Shown in pieces: positions 19,566 through 24,736 of a stretch of 64,000 nucleotides of DNA. Position 1 is the first letter of the stretch, and each line of letters starts with the position of its first letter. The notes beneath the pieces are model-generated. The model did not search any database, was not told the DNA's origin, and saw nothing but the letters and a program-made list of their open reading frames with translations. Made by a program: the position numbers and the translations under genes. Where the stretch lies: positions 186,001 through 250,000 of the forward strand of contig NZ_MUNT01000005.1 of assembly GCF_002001175.1 (NCBI RefSeq), read 5' to 3'. The stretch is from Rhodanobacter sp. C03 (GTDB lineage: Bacteria; Pseudomonadota; Gammaproteobacteria; Xanthomonadales; Rhodanobacteraceae).

Positions 19566-20051
19566 TCAGTGCGCTTCGGCACCCGGCGGATGCGCGTGAC
19601 CATGCTGGATCTCTTCCTCGGTGGCATCGCGAACGTCGTTGATGACGACGTCAAAATTCAGCGTCTTGCCGGCCATCGGGTGGTTCAGATCCACGTCGAT
19701 CGCGCTCATGCCGACCTTGTGCACCGTCACCGCGCGCTGGCTACCGTCCTTCAGCTTCAGCACGGTGACAATGCCCGGCTTGAGGCGATTCGCCTGTGGG
19801 AAATACTTTTTCGACATGCGCTGGATCTGGTCTTCCTGGCGCTCGCCATAACCATCGGCCGCCGCCACCTCGGCCTGCAGCGTCTCGCCGGCCTCATGGC
19901 CTTCCAGCGCCGCTTCCAGACCCGGGATCAGCTGGCCGTGGCCGAGCAGGACCCACAGCTGCTCGTCGCGATCATGCGAACTCTCGATCTTTTCACCGTC
20001 CACCGTCAGCGTGTAGTGGATCGCGATGACCTTGTCCTTGCCAGCCTTCAT
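19566..20051 (-). CDS. slyD: FKBP-type peptidyl-prolyl isomerase SlyD
   Basis: Cis-trans prolyl isomerase and chaperone. 161 residues: FKBP half (MKAGKDKVIAIHYTL, then VLLGHGQLIPGLEAALEGHEAGE), the inserted IF chaperone flap (about 70-120, GYGERQEDQIQRMSKKYF) and the return NHPMAGKTLNFDVVI. The C-terminal tail is short with only three His (HGHAHPPGAEAH), far less metal-binding than the E. coli tail. Its start is 51 bases from the native stop of the MFS gene as it was before transposon insertion. Confidence 0.95.
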   Translation of the reverse strand: MKAGKDKVIAIHYTLTVDGEKIESSHDRDEQLWVLLGHGQLIPGLEAALEGHEAGETLQAEVAAADGYGERQEDQIQRMSKKYFPQANRLKPGIVTVLKLKDGSQRAVTVHKVGMSAIDVDLNHPMAGKTLNFDVVINDVRDATEEEIQHGHAHPPGAEAH

Positions 20052-20119: not shown

Positions 20120-20153
20120 CGAAATCCGGTAGTGTCTCAGTTTGAAATCTAGC
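20120..20153. repeat. Left target duplication and terminal inverted repeat
   Basis: CGAAATCC (20120-20127) followed by the 26-bp left terminal repeat (20128-20153). The last stop codon of the DUF2335 gene (20149-20151) lies inside this repeat. Confidence 0.9.
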
Positions 20154-20682
20154 CTTTTCTACTTCTTGTTTTAGGCTTCTTAGGCGTGGAAGGCTTAGGT
20201 TGTTCTGCCTTTTCCTCTTTGGCACCATAGTGCCGCGCGAGGATGAAGGCGCCTCCGAATACGGTGATGGCGCCTCCCCCGAACCCGGCGGCAGCTCCTG
20301 GCGATCCCAGATAGGCAATGATGCAAGTTGTGATCATCGCAGCAACAAACGAACACATGGCGAACTTTTGTCCGCGCGGGATCGCGTCAACATCGGTTTT
20401 CATACAATGATGCCGAATCTGCTGCTCGGCCTGAGCCATCTCTATGATCTTCAGCGCGGACCCGGGACTGACTTCCTCGTACGCCGCCAAACTTTCTGGG
20501 GAAGGTAGCGGTCCAGAATGCGACTTAACCTGAAGGATGTACTGCTGTACTGCCTTATAGATTTGGGGCTGACTTGCTTGGAGCCGCTGGACTTCAGGTG
20601 GCAGAGGAACAGGAGGATGCGCACTCGCTTGCATTGGCGAGTCCGCTTCCTCGTTTGACCTTGATTCTTCGTCCTTGTTCAT
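20149..20682 (-). CDS. DUF2335 membrane protein, transposon cargo
   Basis: 177 residues. A proline-rich N-terminal part, then LPSPESLAAYEEVSPGSALKIIEMAQAEQQIRHH, the helical signature of the DUF2335 family, then two transmembrane segments (about 112-130 and 134-152; AMCSFVAAMITTCIIAYLG and GGGAITVFGGAFILA) and a Lys-rich tail (KPSTPKKPKTRSRKG). Molecular function of the family is unknown. The stop codon is formed by the terminal inverted repeat, so the gene is fitted exactly to the element end and is cargo rather than a captured fragment. 20683-20914, between it and the transposase, shows no convincing gene. Confidence 0.8.
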   Translation of the reverse strand: MNKDEESRSNEEADSPMQASAHPPVPLPPEVQRLQASQPQIYKAVQQYILQVKSHSGPLPSPESLAAYEEVSPGSALKIIEMAQAEQQIRHHCMKTDVDAIPRGQKFAMCSFVAAMITTCIIAYLGSPGAAAGFGGGAITVFGGAFILARHYGAKEEKAEQPKPSTPKKPKTRSRKG

Positions 20683-20914
20683 CGAACGATCTTAACGCAA
20701 AGCGCAAGTCGTTTCCGACTGCTTGCCAATCGGAGGCCTGATCGCCATGCCAATAGTTCTTGGTCAGGCATTTTGTATCTGGATACAGTTCTAGAATGCT
20801 CGTGAAACCGTACCAGAAGTACGTTTTTCTTGGATTCTTCACTGTCTCTTCCTTCTGGACTTAAATCACCAGATGATGATAGCTCCATAGTAGACACGTT
20901 TTCCGTGTCTAAGT

Positions 20915-21793
20915 TCAAGCACAAGTTGGTTTTTTCTTGTACGGGCCACGAGCCTTGGCGGCCGGATCTGGCACCAGCGCCGCAATCTCTGCCAGTGACC
21001 ATACATGGTCAGACACGCCAGCTTCCATCGCAGGCGTGACGCGAAGCGTCTTGTGGATCCGGCCGAAGTTGTAGTGCATGAAGTGCAGCGCAACCGCGTG
21101 CATGTGATTGTCCACTTTCTTGCTGAAAGCATTAGAAAGACGCGTAAAGCGGCGCATGGACATGCGCATGGTCAGGTTCTGGCGCTCGACATAGCTTGTC
21201 GAGATATGGGCTGGATTCGGCTCGCCTTCAATGCGCACGGTCTTGGTGCCGATATGCTCGCTCGGGCTGTACTTGCGCTCTGGCGAGGATGGGCCTTCAC
21301 CGTAGACCTTCACGAGCATGGCGTAGTCGATATCCGAACCAAATGCCCGCTCTACCGCATCCACGTAGACCTTGTGGCCGTCCGTGGTGAGCTGGATGCG
21401 GTTAGAGAGACGTCCCGCCAGATCAGCGATAAAGGCGTTTGCAGCGGCAGCGCCACGATCACCAACCATCCATGAAGCAATGATCTTGGTATCGGCGCAA
21501 ATGGCCGTCCACGTCCACACATCACCGACGCCGAACTCACCTTCGCGCTCAGCCGGGACGTTCTTCTGCTTGGCACCGACGAACGACCAGATTTCGTCGC
21601 ACTGGACGCGCTTGCACGGCAGGTTGCGCAGGGTGCTGTCCTGGTACTCGGCGCAGGCCGAGCCTACGTCTACCAGCAGCTTCGTCACGGTATTAATGGA
21701 GCAGTCCGCTAAGCGGGAAGCCGCACGTAGGCTCATGCCTTCGACGAGGAAGCCGAGGATTTTGGCGCGTTCTGCAATGGACATGCGGTTCAT
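20915..21793 (-). CDS. IS1-family-type DDE transposase
   Basis: 292 residues. N-terminal helix-turn-helix (AERAKILGFLVEGMSLRAASRLADCSINTVTKLL), then CDEIWSFVGAKQKNV carrying the first Asp/Glu, a DVWTWTAICADTKIIASWMVGDR core, LTTDGHKVY with the second Asp, and TSYVERQNLTMRMSMRRFTRLSN with the final Glu. ERQNLTMRM and HAVALHFMHYNFGRIHKTLR are hallmarks of transposases usually annotated as IS1 family. The frame is intact. The 23 bases before the ATG form an inverted repeat AGTTCAG / CTGAACT (21794-21816) whose loop holds AGAGG, so translation may be self-limited. Confidence 0.93.
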   Translation of the reverse strand: MNRMSIAERAKILGFLVEGMSLRAASRLADCSINTVTKLLVDVGSACAEYQDSTLRNLPCKRVQCDEIWSFVGAKQKNVPAEREGEFGVGDVWTWTAICADTKIIASWMVGDRGAAAANAFIADLAGRLSNRIQLTTDGHKVYVDAVERAFGSDIDYAMLVKVYGEGPSSPERKYSPSEHIGTKTVRIEGEPNPAHISTSYVERQNLTMRMSMRRFTRLSNAFSKKVDNHMHAVALHFMHYNFGRIHKTLRVTPAMEAGVSDHVWSLAEIAALVPDPAAKARGPYKKKPTCA

Positions 21794-21937
21794 AGTTCAG
21801 CCTCTTAAACTGAACTATATGCCAGAGTAATGTTAAATGCAACTGTTTGTTTACGTAATTTGCCTTTTTATAGTTGCACATGTCTGCGGATGATGTATTC
21901 TTGCCTCACGCAGACTTGTCGAAGTCGGGAGCTGACC

Positions 21938-22750
21938 ATGGAAAGCACAACTACGGTCTTGCCACAGAGTGACGACCGGGCCACAACTCAAGGACGGTCT
22001 ACCGTTCAATTTCCATATTCCGATCTTGACGCGGCCATTGAAGTCGTGCGTGGCGTTCACAATGCCGGAGGAACGGCATGCGATTCGGATCAATTGGCTG
22101 CGGAAATGAAGATGGAAGCCAAGGGTGGCGGCTTCCGGATGCGTATCACTGGGGCGCAGACCTTCGGACTGATTGTGTATGAACGCGGAGGGCGCATATC
22201 CCTGACGGATCTCGGACGCCAAATTATTGATTCCGCCACTGAGCGGCAGGCGCGCGTGAGTGCGTTTCTGACAGTCGAGCTATACGCCAAGGTCTACGAG
22301 CAATTCAAGGGCGGCCCATTGCCCCCACAGGCAGGGCTGGAGCGTGCGATAGGCACTCTCGGGGTGGGGGCAAAAGTAAGAGATCGAGCGCGGCAGGTTT
22401 TGCTTCGAAGCGCAAAACAGGGCGGATTCTTCGAAGCCGCTGCCGATCGCCTTGTAAAACCAAGCATCAAAACTGATACCGGCATTAGCCAAGGCCAATT
22501 GGACGAGAAAGACAATCGAGACAAGGGCAGAAGTGGTGGTGGTGGCGGCAATGATGACGAGTTGCATCCTCTCATCCGCGGTCTTCTTCAAACACTGCCA
22601 GCGCCAGGGGGAGTGTGGGGTGTTAGTGACCGGCTAGATTGGCTAAATATGGCCAATAGCATCTTGAAAATGATCTACAAGTCTGGCCCGAATGCTGGTG
22701 ATATCAACATTACGATTGCCCAGAAGGAAGGGGGCGGAACGAACGGGTAG
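21938..22750 (+). CDS. Uncharacterised 270-residue protein, transposon cargo
   Basis: Start at 21938 (MESTTTVLPQ) with GGGAG 7 bases upstream, although the frame is open from 21830. No family can be named with confidence. Residues about 30-100 (FPYSDLDAAIEVVRGVHNAGG ... FRMRITGAQTFGLIVYERGGRISLTDLGRQII) look like winged-helix folds; 105-165 are helical (AFLTVELYAKVYEQFKGGPLPP). A glycine-rich linker (RSGGGGGNDDE) precedes a C-terminal part with HPLIRGLLQTLPAPGGVW and SRDRLDWLNMA-like helices. Divergent from the transposase across 144 bases. Confidence 0.75.
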   Translation: MESTTTVLPQSDDRATTQGRSTVQFPYSDLDAAIEVVRGVHNAGGTACDSDQLAAEMKMEAKGGGFRMRITGAQTFGLIVYERGGRISLTDLGRQIIDSATERQARVSAFLTVELYAKVYEQFKGGPLPPQAGLERAIGTLGVGAKVRDRARQVLLRSAKQGGFFEAAADRLVKPSIKTDTGISQGQLDEKDNRDKGRSGGGGGNDDELHPLIRGLLQTLPAPGGVWGVSDRLDWLNMANSILKMIYKSGPNAGDINITIAQKEGGGTNG

Positions 22751-22755
22751 AAATG

Positions 22756-22790
22756 AAAAACCCCGCAGCGCGCCAACGCTAACGGGGTCT
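22756..22790 (-). terminator. Intrinsic terminator inside the transposon
   Basis: CCCCG...CGGGG arms with inner AGCG/CGCT pairing, followed on the minus strand by TTTTTCATTT. It lies 6 bases past the stop of the 270-residue gene and faces the minus-strand gene at 23028. Confidence 0.75.
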
Positions 22791-22916
22791 AAATTTGGCA
22801 TGGTGGTGAAGGCACCCCTCTGCCACCTACAGCTTGTCGGTTAGGACACCAAAAGCATACGTTCTTTTGGGGCTGTAGGCAACTATTGCCTTCCAATCCT
22901 CTTAGGAGAATTGGCT

Positions 22917-23048
22917 ATGGAATCTTTCCATCGCAAGCCCAAGAGCGTATTTGTGCGCGCTTACGTGAGGTTCCGTTTCGGACGGATCGAGAACGTAATC
23001 CAGCACTTCCGCTCGCATCCGGGTCAGTTATCGTTCGCTTTTAACTGA
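22917..23048 (+). CDS. 43-residue basic protein, transposon cargo
   Basis: A short frame with a strong AGGAG Shine-Dalgarno (22904-22908) 8 bases before ATG. The product begins MESFHRKPKSVFVRAYVRF and continues RFGRIENVIQHFRSHPGQLSFAFN-type residues to a TGA; it is very basic (many Arg/Lys/His) and has no Cys or membrane segment. It is too short for ordinary gene calls and its 3' end overlaps the end of the convergent gene by 21 bases. No function can be assigned. Confidence 0.6.
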   Translation: MESFHRKPKSVFVRAYVRFRFGRIENVIQHFRSHPGQLSFAFN

Positions 23049-23306
23049 CGGCTTCACAGGAGCGCCAGCTTTCGCTGGCGCTCCCTTATTCCAGCGTGTC
23101 GCAGCGGCATGTTGCGCAAGCTTTACGCGATCTTCCGCTGAGAGAGCATCCATTCTAGATTTTCCACCCTTCATTCCACCCTTACTGCTCGCCACTTTCC
23201 TAGCGGATGTCTTCTCAGAAGTCGGAAGCGCCGCTTCACCCGTAGCTACATCAAGGATGAATTTCGCTAACTGGTTGGGATCGCGCGGGCGCTTAGGATT
23301 AGGCAT
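23028..23306 (-). CDS. Small KGGK-type basic protein, transposon cargo
   Basis: 92 residues from the ATG at 23306 (MPNPKRPRDPNQLAKFILDVATGE); seven more codons upstream are possible. The second half is ARKVASSKGGMKGGKSRMDALSAEDR, then LAQHAAATRWNK. The KGGKxR / A-ATRW pattern belongs to a widespread family of short basic proteins of unknown function, often near mobile elements (recalled, not checked). A nucleic-acid-binding role is a guess based on charge. Confidence 0.7.
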   Translation of the reverse strand: MPNPKRPRDPNQLAKFILDVATGEAALPTSEKTSARKVASSKGGMKGGKSRMDALSAEDRVKLAQHAAATRWNKGAPAKAGAPVKPSVKSER

Positions 23307-23356
23307 GGCTACAGTATGAAGCCGCATGCCTGACCGCTCAAGGAATCGGCGAGCAG

Positions 23357-23390
23357 CCTAGATTTCAAACTGAGACACTACCCGAAATCC
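23357..23390. repeat. Right terminal inverted repeat and target duplication
   Basis: Reverse complement of the left terminal repeat, ending ...GAGACACTACC, followed by the second copy of CGAAATCC. The TAG that now ends the MFS gene is inside this repeat. Position uncertain by one base. Confidence 0.9.
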
Positions 23391-24598
23391 AGCCCGCGCG
23401 CTTCCGGCCCCAGCCACACCAGCAAGGCCAGGATCAGCGCGACCACAGCGATCCACAACGACATCGCAAAGGCATAGTCGCCGCCGTGCCAATGCGCGAT
23501 CCAGGTCTGCGCTGTAGCCGTGCCGGCCGCCAGCAGGTTGCCCATCTGATAGGCAAAGCCCGGCAAGGTGGCGCGCATGGAGCTCGGCGAGAGTTCGTTG
23601 AGATGCGTCGGCACCACGCCCCATGCACCCTGCACCATCACTTGGATCAGGAACGCACCGAGGCCAAGCAGCAGCAACGAGCCGCCGTACGTCCATAGCG
23701 GGATCACCGGAATCGCGAGCAGCGCGGCAATGATCATCGCCTTGCGTCGACCGATCCGCTCCGACAGCGTGCCGAAGAACAAGCCGCCGGCCAGCGCGCC
23801 GAGATTGAGCAGCGCAACCAGCATGAACGCCGCACCCGAGCTGGTATCCAGGTGCAGGTTCACTTCCTCGAAGGTGTGGTACATGTCCTGCGAGCCGTGG
23901 CTGAACATGTTGAAGGCCGCCATCAGCAGCATCAGATAGATCGCCAGCTTCCAGTGGCCGCGCATGGATTCAAGCACGCCAACCTTCCGGTGCTGCGCCT
24001 GGCCGCTCTGCCACACCGGCGACTCCGGCACACTGCGACGGATGTACAGCACCAACAAGGCCGGTACCGCGCCCACCACGAAAAGCCCACGCCAGCCGAT
24101 GTGATCGAACAACAGCCAGTTGGCCAGCGCGGCGAGGAAAAATCCGCAGGGATAGCCGCTCTGCAGCAGGCCGGAGATCAGTCCACGCGACTTGGCCGGT
24201 ATCGATTCCATCGCCAGCGACGCGCCGATGCCCCACTCGCCACCCATCGCGATACCGAACAGGAAGCGCAACACCAGCAGCATGGTGAGTGAGGTCGAGA
24301 ACGCGGTGGCCAGCTCGAACAACGAGAACAGGATCACATCCAGCATCAGGATCGGGCGCCGCCCGTAGCGATCAGCCAGCCGGCCGAACAGCAAGGCGCC
24401 GATCGGCCGCGCCGCCAGGGTCAGGAACAGACCGTAGGTGACCTTGGCATTGTCGACCCCGAACTCTTTCGACACCGCGACGATGACGAAGGTGAGCAGG
24501 AAGTAGTCGAAGGCATCCAGCGTCCAGCCGAGGAAACTTGCCAGCACGGTATGCCGCTGGGTGGTATCGAGTTCACGCAAGGGTGCAAGCAGTGACAT
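23378..24598 (-). CDS. MFS transporter, lactate/sialate:H+ symporter type, C-terminus altered by the transposon
   Basis: 406 residues from the ATG at 24598 (MSLLAPLRELD); twelve predicted membrane segments. LGWTLDAFDYFLLTFV, GRLADRYGRRP between helices 2 and 3, and GGEWGIGASLAMESIP are typical of the SHS (sialate:H+ symporter/Jen-like) group, whose members carry lactate or other monocarboxylates. The transposon entered just before the stop: the gene now ends ...GLDFG with a TAG supplied by the terminal repeat. Joining the two target copies restores ...LDFEKARP and a TGA at 20103-20105, so only the last five residues were lost and the protein is probably still functional. Confidence 0.88.
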   Translation of the reverse strand: MSLLAPLRELDTTQRHTVLASFLGWTLDAFDYFLLTFVIVAVSKEFGVDNAKVTYGLFLTLAARPIGALLFGRLADRYGRRPILMLDVILFSLFELATAFSTSLTMLLVLRFLFGIAMGGEWGIGASLAMESIPAKSRGLISGLLQSGYPCGFFLAALANWLLFDHIGWRGLFVVGAVPALLVLYIRRSVPESPVWQSGQAQHRKVGVLESMRGHWKLAIYLMLLMAAFNMFSHGSQDMYHTFEEVNLHLDTSSGAAFMLVALLNLGALAGGLFFGTLSERIGRRKAMIIAALLAIPVIPLWTYGGSLLLLGLGAFLIQVMVQGAWGVVPTHLNELSPSSMRATLPGFAYQMGNLLAAGTATAQTWIAHWHGGDYAFAMSLWIAVVALILALLVWLGPEARGLDFG

Positions 24599-24736
24599 CA
24601 AGAGTTCCTTGAGCTGGACTGGCAAAGCGTCACTATCGTATGCCCGGCGTGCTCAAAAGATGCAACCCGCAGGCATGACATGCGGGCATCCAATGACCTA
24701 GGCTGACTGTCTGCATCGTCGACATGTGGAACCCGG

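Follow-up and report, generated by a model that had tools for sequence, protein, structure and literature searches.

A cargo-carrying IS1-type transposon of Rhodanobacter sp. C03 with a second core gene and a putative regulatory palindrome

The window analysed here is a stretch of 64,000 nucleotides from Rhodanobacter sp. C03 (contig NZ_MUNT01000005.1, positions 186,001 to 250,000 of the forward strand). It contains a transposon with a transposase gene (tnp), a small core accessory gene (acc), and cargo genes in two slots, slot A between acc and tnp and slot B between tnp and the far end. The features that delimit the element and its core are given below in base pairs (bp) and amino acids (aa).

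20120-20127, target duplication copy 1, 8 bp, CGAAATCC
20128-23382, transposon (whole element), 3,255 bp
20128-20152, plus strand, terminal inverted repeat at the transposase/slot-B end, 25 bp, GGTAGTGTCTCAGTTTGAAATCTAG
20915-21793, minus strand, transposase, 292 aa, DDE type, IS1-like, no internal stop
23028-23306, minus strand, acc, 92 aa plus stop, frame open from 23327
23327-23344, 18-bp palindrome, putative operator before acc, 2 mismatches to 16 defined bases
23358-23382, minus strand, terminal inverted repeat at the acc end, 25 bp, exact reverse complement of GGTAGTGTCTCAGTTTGAAATCTAG
23383-23390, target duplication copy 2, 8 bp, CGAAATCC

We regard it as probable that the element is an intact member of a large IS1-superfamily lineage with a two-gene core, in which acc would regulate itself and tnp and the cargo slots would recombine.

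The window copy is real, intact, and recently moved. The terminal repeats, described as near-perfect in the original prediction, pair at 25 of 25 bases with the first mismatch at base 26, and the 8-bp duplication claimed for both sides is exact. The region and its flanks were searched against 45 genomes of the same genus, and four were read at base level. In these four (G023, G013, G015, and G016, loci L322-L325), the site is empty, with continuous flanks and a single CGAAATCC each. The exact duplication and the empty sites in relatives indicate that the insertion is recent, as had been proposed. The copy number is one in the strain's own 21-contig draft assembly, where identical copies could have collapsed.

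The wider family was collected by scanning one genome per species, and the best 80 loci and the window make up 81 loci. The 80 loci belong to Dyella, Rhodanobacter, Lysobacter, and other Proteobacteria, and also to metagenome-assembled genomes labelled Acidobacteria, Nitrospirae, Omnitrophota, Verrucomicrobia, and Actinomycetota, among others. An end pair with an exact 8-bp duplication is found in 59 of the 81 loci, whereas pairing the left side of one locus with the right side of another gave exact duplications in 0 of 1,599 controls; the end pairs are therefore not due to chance. The 60 distinct delimited elements, which include the window's and L043 from a slightly different search, range from 1,964 to 5,278 bp (median 3,041), and their target duplications are all different. 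A cargo layout of this kind, held to be uncommon in the original prediction, is represented by 60 elements of 1.96-5.28 kilobases (kb). The ends follow the consensus GGTAGTG nn TCAGTTTGAA, with most positions more than 85% conserved and positions 1-2 and 6-7 invariant at both ends. Elements usually run from one end through acc, cargo slot A, the transposase, and, where present, slot B to the other end; at most 45 bp follow the transposase match in 27 elements, and a second slot of 120-1,521 bp follows it in 33. The same ends are common to relatives of the transposase, in agreement with the predicted assignment of the repeats as its own ends. The anatomy and the empty sites argue strongly that the transposase moves everything between the ends, leaving 8-bp duplications. 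In the proposed mechanism, it would recognise the GGTAGTG..TCAGTTTGAA ends, mobilise the enclosed DNA, and create the duplications, an activity that we infer.

The positions at which related elements cease to match should be noted. The L004 transposase is 94% identical in protein to that of the window, and the cargo of the two elements is unrelated. At the DNA level, they match in tnp (89.7%), in the first 150 bases (82%), and at the ends, with no match otherwise, and the break lies inside acc, the first part of which is 70% alike and the remainder 40%. Slot A of the window (the 43-aa and 270-aa genes) is common to L021 and L033, while slot B (the 82-aa and DUF2335 genes) is common to L006. 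When seven slot-A classes, assigned to 47 of the 60 elements from clusters and by eye, are placed on the transposase tree, whose bootstrap had not settled, 28 changes are required, as compared with 29.2 (25-32) in 300 label shuffles. A single clade of the three transposases sharing slot A, a group chosen for its cargo, is rejected by the approximately unbiased test (p-AU 0.00066). On this sequence evidence, the cargo classes fit the transposase tree no more closely than shuffled labels do, and the window element is a visible mosaic. The fixed set of passenger genes originally envisaged is ruled out by the L004 comparison and the tree test. Slots A and B would swap their content by recombination at conserved core blocks, a route suggested by the mosaicism.

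Cargo frames in the other 59 elements were called mechanically (132 calls of at least 85 aa, some probably spurious) and compared with Pfam at E 1e-4; one of the two tallies lists 25 of 34 families. HTH_3 is found in 20 proteins, Peptidase_M78 in 10, and P63C in 9, followed by HigB-like, proteasome-like, and DUF3467 proteins (3 each), NYN, dCTP deaminase, SocA/Panacea, and Clp and SDH proteases (2 each), and single HicB, DUF1902, GmrSD, MmeI, AAA_21, and 3-dehydroquinase matches. The cargo of the window's element is as follows.

20149-20682, minus strand, slot B, DUF2335 membrane protein, 177 aa, PF10097 E 1.2e-10 over cut-off, homologue in L006
20594-20842, minus strand, slot B, 82-aa frame overlapping the DUF2335 frame start, same-place homologue in L006 (Rhodanobacter FW104-R8)
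21938-22750, plus strand, slot A, 270-aa protein, predicted tandem winged-helix, divergent from transposase, also in L021 and L033
22796-22910, plus strand, structured leader upstream of the 43-aa frame, also conserved in L021 and L033
22917-23048, plus strand, slot A, 43-aa frame, phrog_21154 E 4e-10, homologues in L021 and L033

The original prediction counted four genes besides the transposase; further genes are indeed present, but five frames have relatives, the 82-aa frame having been missed. No Pfam match was found for the 270-aa protein, which looks DNA-binding; in structure comparisons it scores best against winged helices and DNA-recognition domains. It has 234 database relatives, and its gene was not found in viral contigs. 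Among 369 genomes of the class, the gene is present in the window genome only, apart from one 18%-identical match; in this thin test, no cargo was found at fixed sites without the transposase. The leader region (22752-22916) folds strongly (z −3.4). Its inner stem CCAAAAG/CTTTTGG is replaced in L021 by CTTGAAT/ATTCAAG, where both sides are changed and pairing is kept, and L033 is less clear.

The cargo may be a defence or addiction system, in which slot A of the window would be a toxin-antitoxin-like or anti-phage pair that retains the element. Other members carry HigB-like, HicB, SocA/Panacea, XRE plus M78 peptidase, GmrSD, and MmeI-type genes, and the DUF2335 protein matches phrog_3996 (E 5e-22), which belongs to the moron category of PHROG. 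However, PADLOC gave a sole weak match among the five proteins (LmuC, E 0.053), and neither the missing Pfam match nor the DNA-recognition folds of the 270-aa protein point to such a pair. We hold this reading tentatively, at somewhat below even likelihood. In the mosaic lineage that we prefer, the window copy inserted recently with its 270-aa, 43-aa, DUF2335, and 82-aa cargo, and the likeliest role of the cargo, weakly indicated, may be to favour retention of the element in the host.

The second core gene, acc, lies on the transposase strand upstream of the transposase in 57 of the 60 elements, and in 50 of these 57 it starts no more than 110 bp from the tip. A viral set was also collected (80 loci from viral contigs, 42 distinct elements), in which acc is found in 39 of 45 elements, some of them duplicates. 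The smallest elements of this set are L207 (1,365 bp), which has both ends and an exact duplication, and another of 1,323 bp with a partial acc and a tRNA gene. Since L207 holds acc and the transposase alone, acc is a core gene; the original prediction had listed 23028-23327 as a passenger, and here the gene is confirmed and its passenger status is not. The consensus of the protein is MxxxPKRPRDxNQLAxxIVxxATGE...KxPAAVALGRxGGLKGGKARAxKLSAxxRxxIAKKAAxARW. Substitutions by codon position (761/480/2121 in 50 close, non-independent pairs) fall mostly at third positions, indicating coding constraint on acc.

The linkage of the two core genes was assessed in 397 genomes of the phylum by searching for acc and transposase separately, with the window included in both searches. 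Eleven of the 15 strong acc matches (E<1e-13) are followed on the same strand, at a distance of up to 2.2 kb, by transposase sequence, which in one case is a remnant. Twelve near full-length transposases were found (two with a stop), of which 10 are preceded by a strong acc match and one by a partial acc. The acc profile is matched by 7,999 of 8,000 scored candidate proteins, and the named database relatives among the 120 listed are called 'hypothetical'. No sequence match to acc was found in the PDB, nor a fold match under E 0.001, and Pfam gave weak, chance-like matches only (2 of 53 members). P63C-type cargo proteins (L028, L039, L055, L006, L010, and L080) begin with GG.ARA..L...R..IA..AA.RW, resembling the C-terminal half of acc.

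The palindrome before acc recurs in the family. A search for TGCTTGAnCGnTCAAGCA with up to 3 mismatches gave 65 matches in the 60 elements, as compared with 0.6 in shuffled sequences and 1 in a reversed control. Thirty matches lie in the 115 bases before tnp, most commonly at −28/−29 and −38/−39. Another 29 fall in the first 110 bases, 5 are located deeper in the element at acc starts, and 1 is near the far end; none is inside tnp. Of the 34 acc palindromes, 22 are wholly before the start, mostly at −28/−29 or −37 to −39, as before tnp; the acc start codon is uncertain in L009 and L073. Counted by element, the palindrome is present at the left end in 29, before tnp in 29, and at both places in 22. 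In L043, acc lies 1.36 kb inward with the palindrome 29 bp before it, the sole inward acc with a palindrome clearly upstream. Because the palindrome recurs before or over the acc start and before tnp, acc is probably an autoregulator that binds it. This small basic protein, encoded toward the end opposite to that of the transposase, would regulate itself and the transposase through the palindrome at both promoters.

Several observations weigh against these interpretations. Eight of the 81 loci have no end pair, and a further 14 have no exact duplication, partly because of contig ends. In the viral set, the duplication is exact in 45 of 80 loci, and 4 of 1,581 control pairs are also exact; we think that these pairs may come from several contigs with the same element. 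L079 is without acc, L052 and L063 retain its start portion alone, and acc is not seen in 6 of the 45 viral-set elements. Among the 397 genomes, 4 of the 15 strong acc matches have no neighbouring transposase, and a full-length transposase in G103 has no acc. The predicted structure of acc is weak (predicted local distance difference test, pLDDT, 75; predicted template modelling score, pTM, 0.34) and matches no fold, and thus gives DNA binding no support. Twelve of the 34 acc palindromes overlap the first codons, reading M-P-K/N/T-R-S-S, and protein constraint may explain or contribute to them. Only 36 of the 60 elements carry the palindrome at the acc end, in front of tnp, or at both, and among the 42 distinct viral-set elements it is at the acc end in 10 and before tnp in 10. 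In the window, it is present before acc and missing before the element's own tnp. Our estimate for acc as a regulator is kept since the 22 upstream acc palindromes and the 30 tnp palindromes remain. By eye, a different inverted repeat, GTTCAG..CTGAAC, lies before tnp in the window (21795-21815), and the divergent 270-aa gene may encode the regulator acting on it.

The insertion sites of the family are biased. In both sets together, with a few viral duplicates, 6 of 104 delimited elements stand on the 5' side of a tRNA gene at a distance of 54-65 bp, and chance would place about 0.5 of them within 100 bp; the narrow range was noticed post hoc.

L033, L055, L056, L067, L071, L080: tRNA-adjacent insertions, element edge 54-65 bp before the tRNA 5' end

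A seventh case, at 55 bp, is L049, whose limits are set by the ends only. Of 91 insertions with enough flank, 31 are inside long frames as compared with 67.6 expected from random points, and 26 are within 150 bp before a gene start, where 7.9% of random points fall. The bias toward gene starts and tRNAs may reflect either a choice of target or the loss of harmful insertions by selection. It could stem from a targeting factor, and acc could then be a transposition helper or target-site factor working with the transposase, the palindrome being a site for the transposase or a host factor. The presence of acc in the smallest complete element seen, its usual position beside one end, and its small, basic, helical protein are compatible with such a role. 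On the other hand, palindromes at acc and before tnp, with one near the far end and none inside tnp, fit promoters, and the L043 palindrome has kept its place 29 bp before an acc lying far inward. We consider a helper role less likely and prefer acc as the autoregulator.

The transposase assigns the element to the IS1 type. The intact frame and IS1 type of the original prediction both hold, the PF03400 (IS1 DDE domain) match being 32.5 bits over a cut-off of 24.1; the score with the NCBIfam IS1 model NF033558 is 64.4 bits, below its cut-off of 100. D66, D138, and E203 are invariant across the 33 aligned transposases of alignment A2 (33 of the 60); alignment A1 is without L009, L037, and L073 (frame or filter). 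IS1-family insertion sequences (ISs) are short (about 0.7-1.2 kb), contain the transposase only, and duplicate 8-9 bp of the target. The window lineage shares with them the PF03400 DDE domain, the 8-bp duplication, and ends of the form GGnnnTG (here GGTAGTG at both ends), an IS1-family feature according to PMC6807381. It differs in its size of 2-5 kb, single transposase frame, core gene acc, cargo slots, and recurrent palindrome. Since the 60 elements, at 1,964-5,278 bp, exceed the short transposase-only IS1 in size and content, the lineage is a variant rather than plain IS1. IS1595-family elements have passenger genes and 8-bp duplications, as found here. IS1595 is also related to IS1, judging from a title cited in ISsaga (PMC3129680); however, the window transposase fits IS1 models far better (1.3e-17 vs 4e-4), and IS1595 membership is rejected on its NF033547 score of 20.3 bits, under the cut-off of 75.

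The transporter-IS layout that had been proposed is supported. As in the transporter ISs of Siguier et al. (2009), known to us as cited in ISsaga (PMC3129680), IS ends and a transposase enclose passenger genes unrelated to transposition, which are dispensable judging by L207. Unlike these, the window lineage carries passengers throughout as sampled, together with a conserved accessory gene and exchangeable slots. It is a distinct cargo-carrying lineage, IS1-type by transposase, ends, and duplication and with a second core gene; no description of the family was found in the literature searched, mostly titles and abstract openings and without ISfinder, and the group name ISMhu11 occurs in none of those papers. 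That an ordinary IS1-family IS enclosed host genes by accident as a one-off transporter IS would agree with the IS1-type transposase and the single copy in the genome, but is very improbable and was rejected on an architecture common across phyla, since the other genome-set elements likewise measure 2-5 kb and hold additional frames in these slots, acc recurs in 57 of 60, and the window cargo is found inside related elements of other bacteria. A phage or plasmid origin was likewise rejected on DNA searches: no similar DNA was found among 50,697 phage records, and fragments of part of the transposase (65-74% identity) occur in 8 of 72,556 plasmid records. By tblastn, the transposase is detected in 4 plasmids at E 1e-50 and in one phage at 32% (E 1e-20).

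Related elements also carry tRNA genes upstream of tnp as detected by ARAGORN, which found no tRNA gene in the window; low-threshold scans of the elements gave many spurious calls and were discarded. The genes are located as follows.

L007, 4305-4399
L017, 4241-4333
L022, 4697-4786
L023, 4842-4916
L030, 2818-2893
L032, 4241-4335
L043, 4746-4820
L049, 4589-4662
L056, 4783-4856
L061, 939-1014
L070, 4821-4897
L110, 1298-1373
L164, 4776-4859
L173, 4781-4866
L217, 4798-4871
L224, 4820-4894

The bodies of these 16 tRNAs were compared, with the anticodon masked, with 103 other tRNAs under leave-one-out controls. The isotype of the nearest body differs from the anticodon in 16 of 16 element tRNAs and in 22 of 99 controls (Fisher 1.5e-9); the bodies in L023, L061, and L224 are unclear, and 5 of the 16 are in copies without two exact ends. 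Candidates in L186 and L237, whose nearest bodies also differed from the anticodon, were dropped for poor position or shape. In the clearer cases, Ser bodies have Arg TCG or Leu TAG/TAA anticodons (L007, L022, L032, and L017), Arg bodies of 74-77 bases have Ser GCT/ACT anticodons (L030, L043, L049, L070, L110, and L217), Leu bodies have the ochre anticodon TTA (L164 and L173), and a His body has a Pro AGG anticodon (L056). The Ser body of L032 was also found against seven whole genomes, and the Arg body of L070 against nine. No consistent pattern relates the tRNAs to the codons of their own transposases. From their sequences, they look built to misread the genetic code. Dual-identity tRNAs occur naturally in Streptomyces and Kitasatospora, where tRNA-ProX was shown to mistranslate, according to PMC11415595 and PMC10365949. 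In these accounts, tRNA-ProX likewise combines a body of one identity with an anticodon of another; it has Pro bodies beside a ProRS variant, whereas the element tRNAs are transposon-borne and mostly have Ser, Arg, or Leu bodies. A recurrent slot-A protein (L004, L008, L013, L030, L032, L056, and others), which by eye has a coiled start and a winged-helix end, adjoins the odd tRNA genes in several elements; no Pfam match over cut-off was found in the five tested.

The chances seem evenly balanced that these elements form a widespread, cross-phylum, cassette-carrying IS1-type class with its own regulator and operator, preferential insertion just upstream of gene starts and tRNAs, and interchangeable cargo that includes mistranslating tRNAs. 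If so, mobile genes would locally rewrite codon meaning, for example, Ser at Leu/Arg codons, Arg at Ser AGY codons, and Leu at ochre stops. Small cargo transposons like these escape normal annotation, as their transposase is labelled IS1, no family name exists for acc, and the cargo seems chromosomal. The ends and acc allow elements to be delimited by sequence alone and their cargo to be collected, including toxin-antitoxin, restriction-like, and unknown genes and mixed-identity tRNAs. IS1-type movement of several kilobases and cargo exchange become testable.

No known RNA family reaches the gathering threshold in the window, and one weak match to BjrC68 within the element (E 0.015) corresponds to a hairpin in the acc gene and was taken as chance. 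The genes on either side of the element were named by eye from their translations. The insertion precedes the start of an FKBP-like frame (19566-20051, minus strand) by approximately 69 bp, and at the other end a transporter-like frame (23378-24625, minus strand) is closed by a stop codon supplied by the element.

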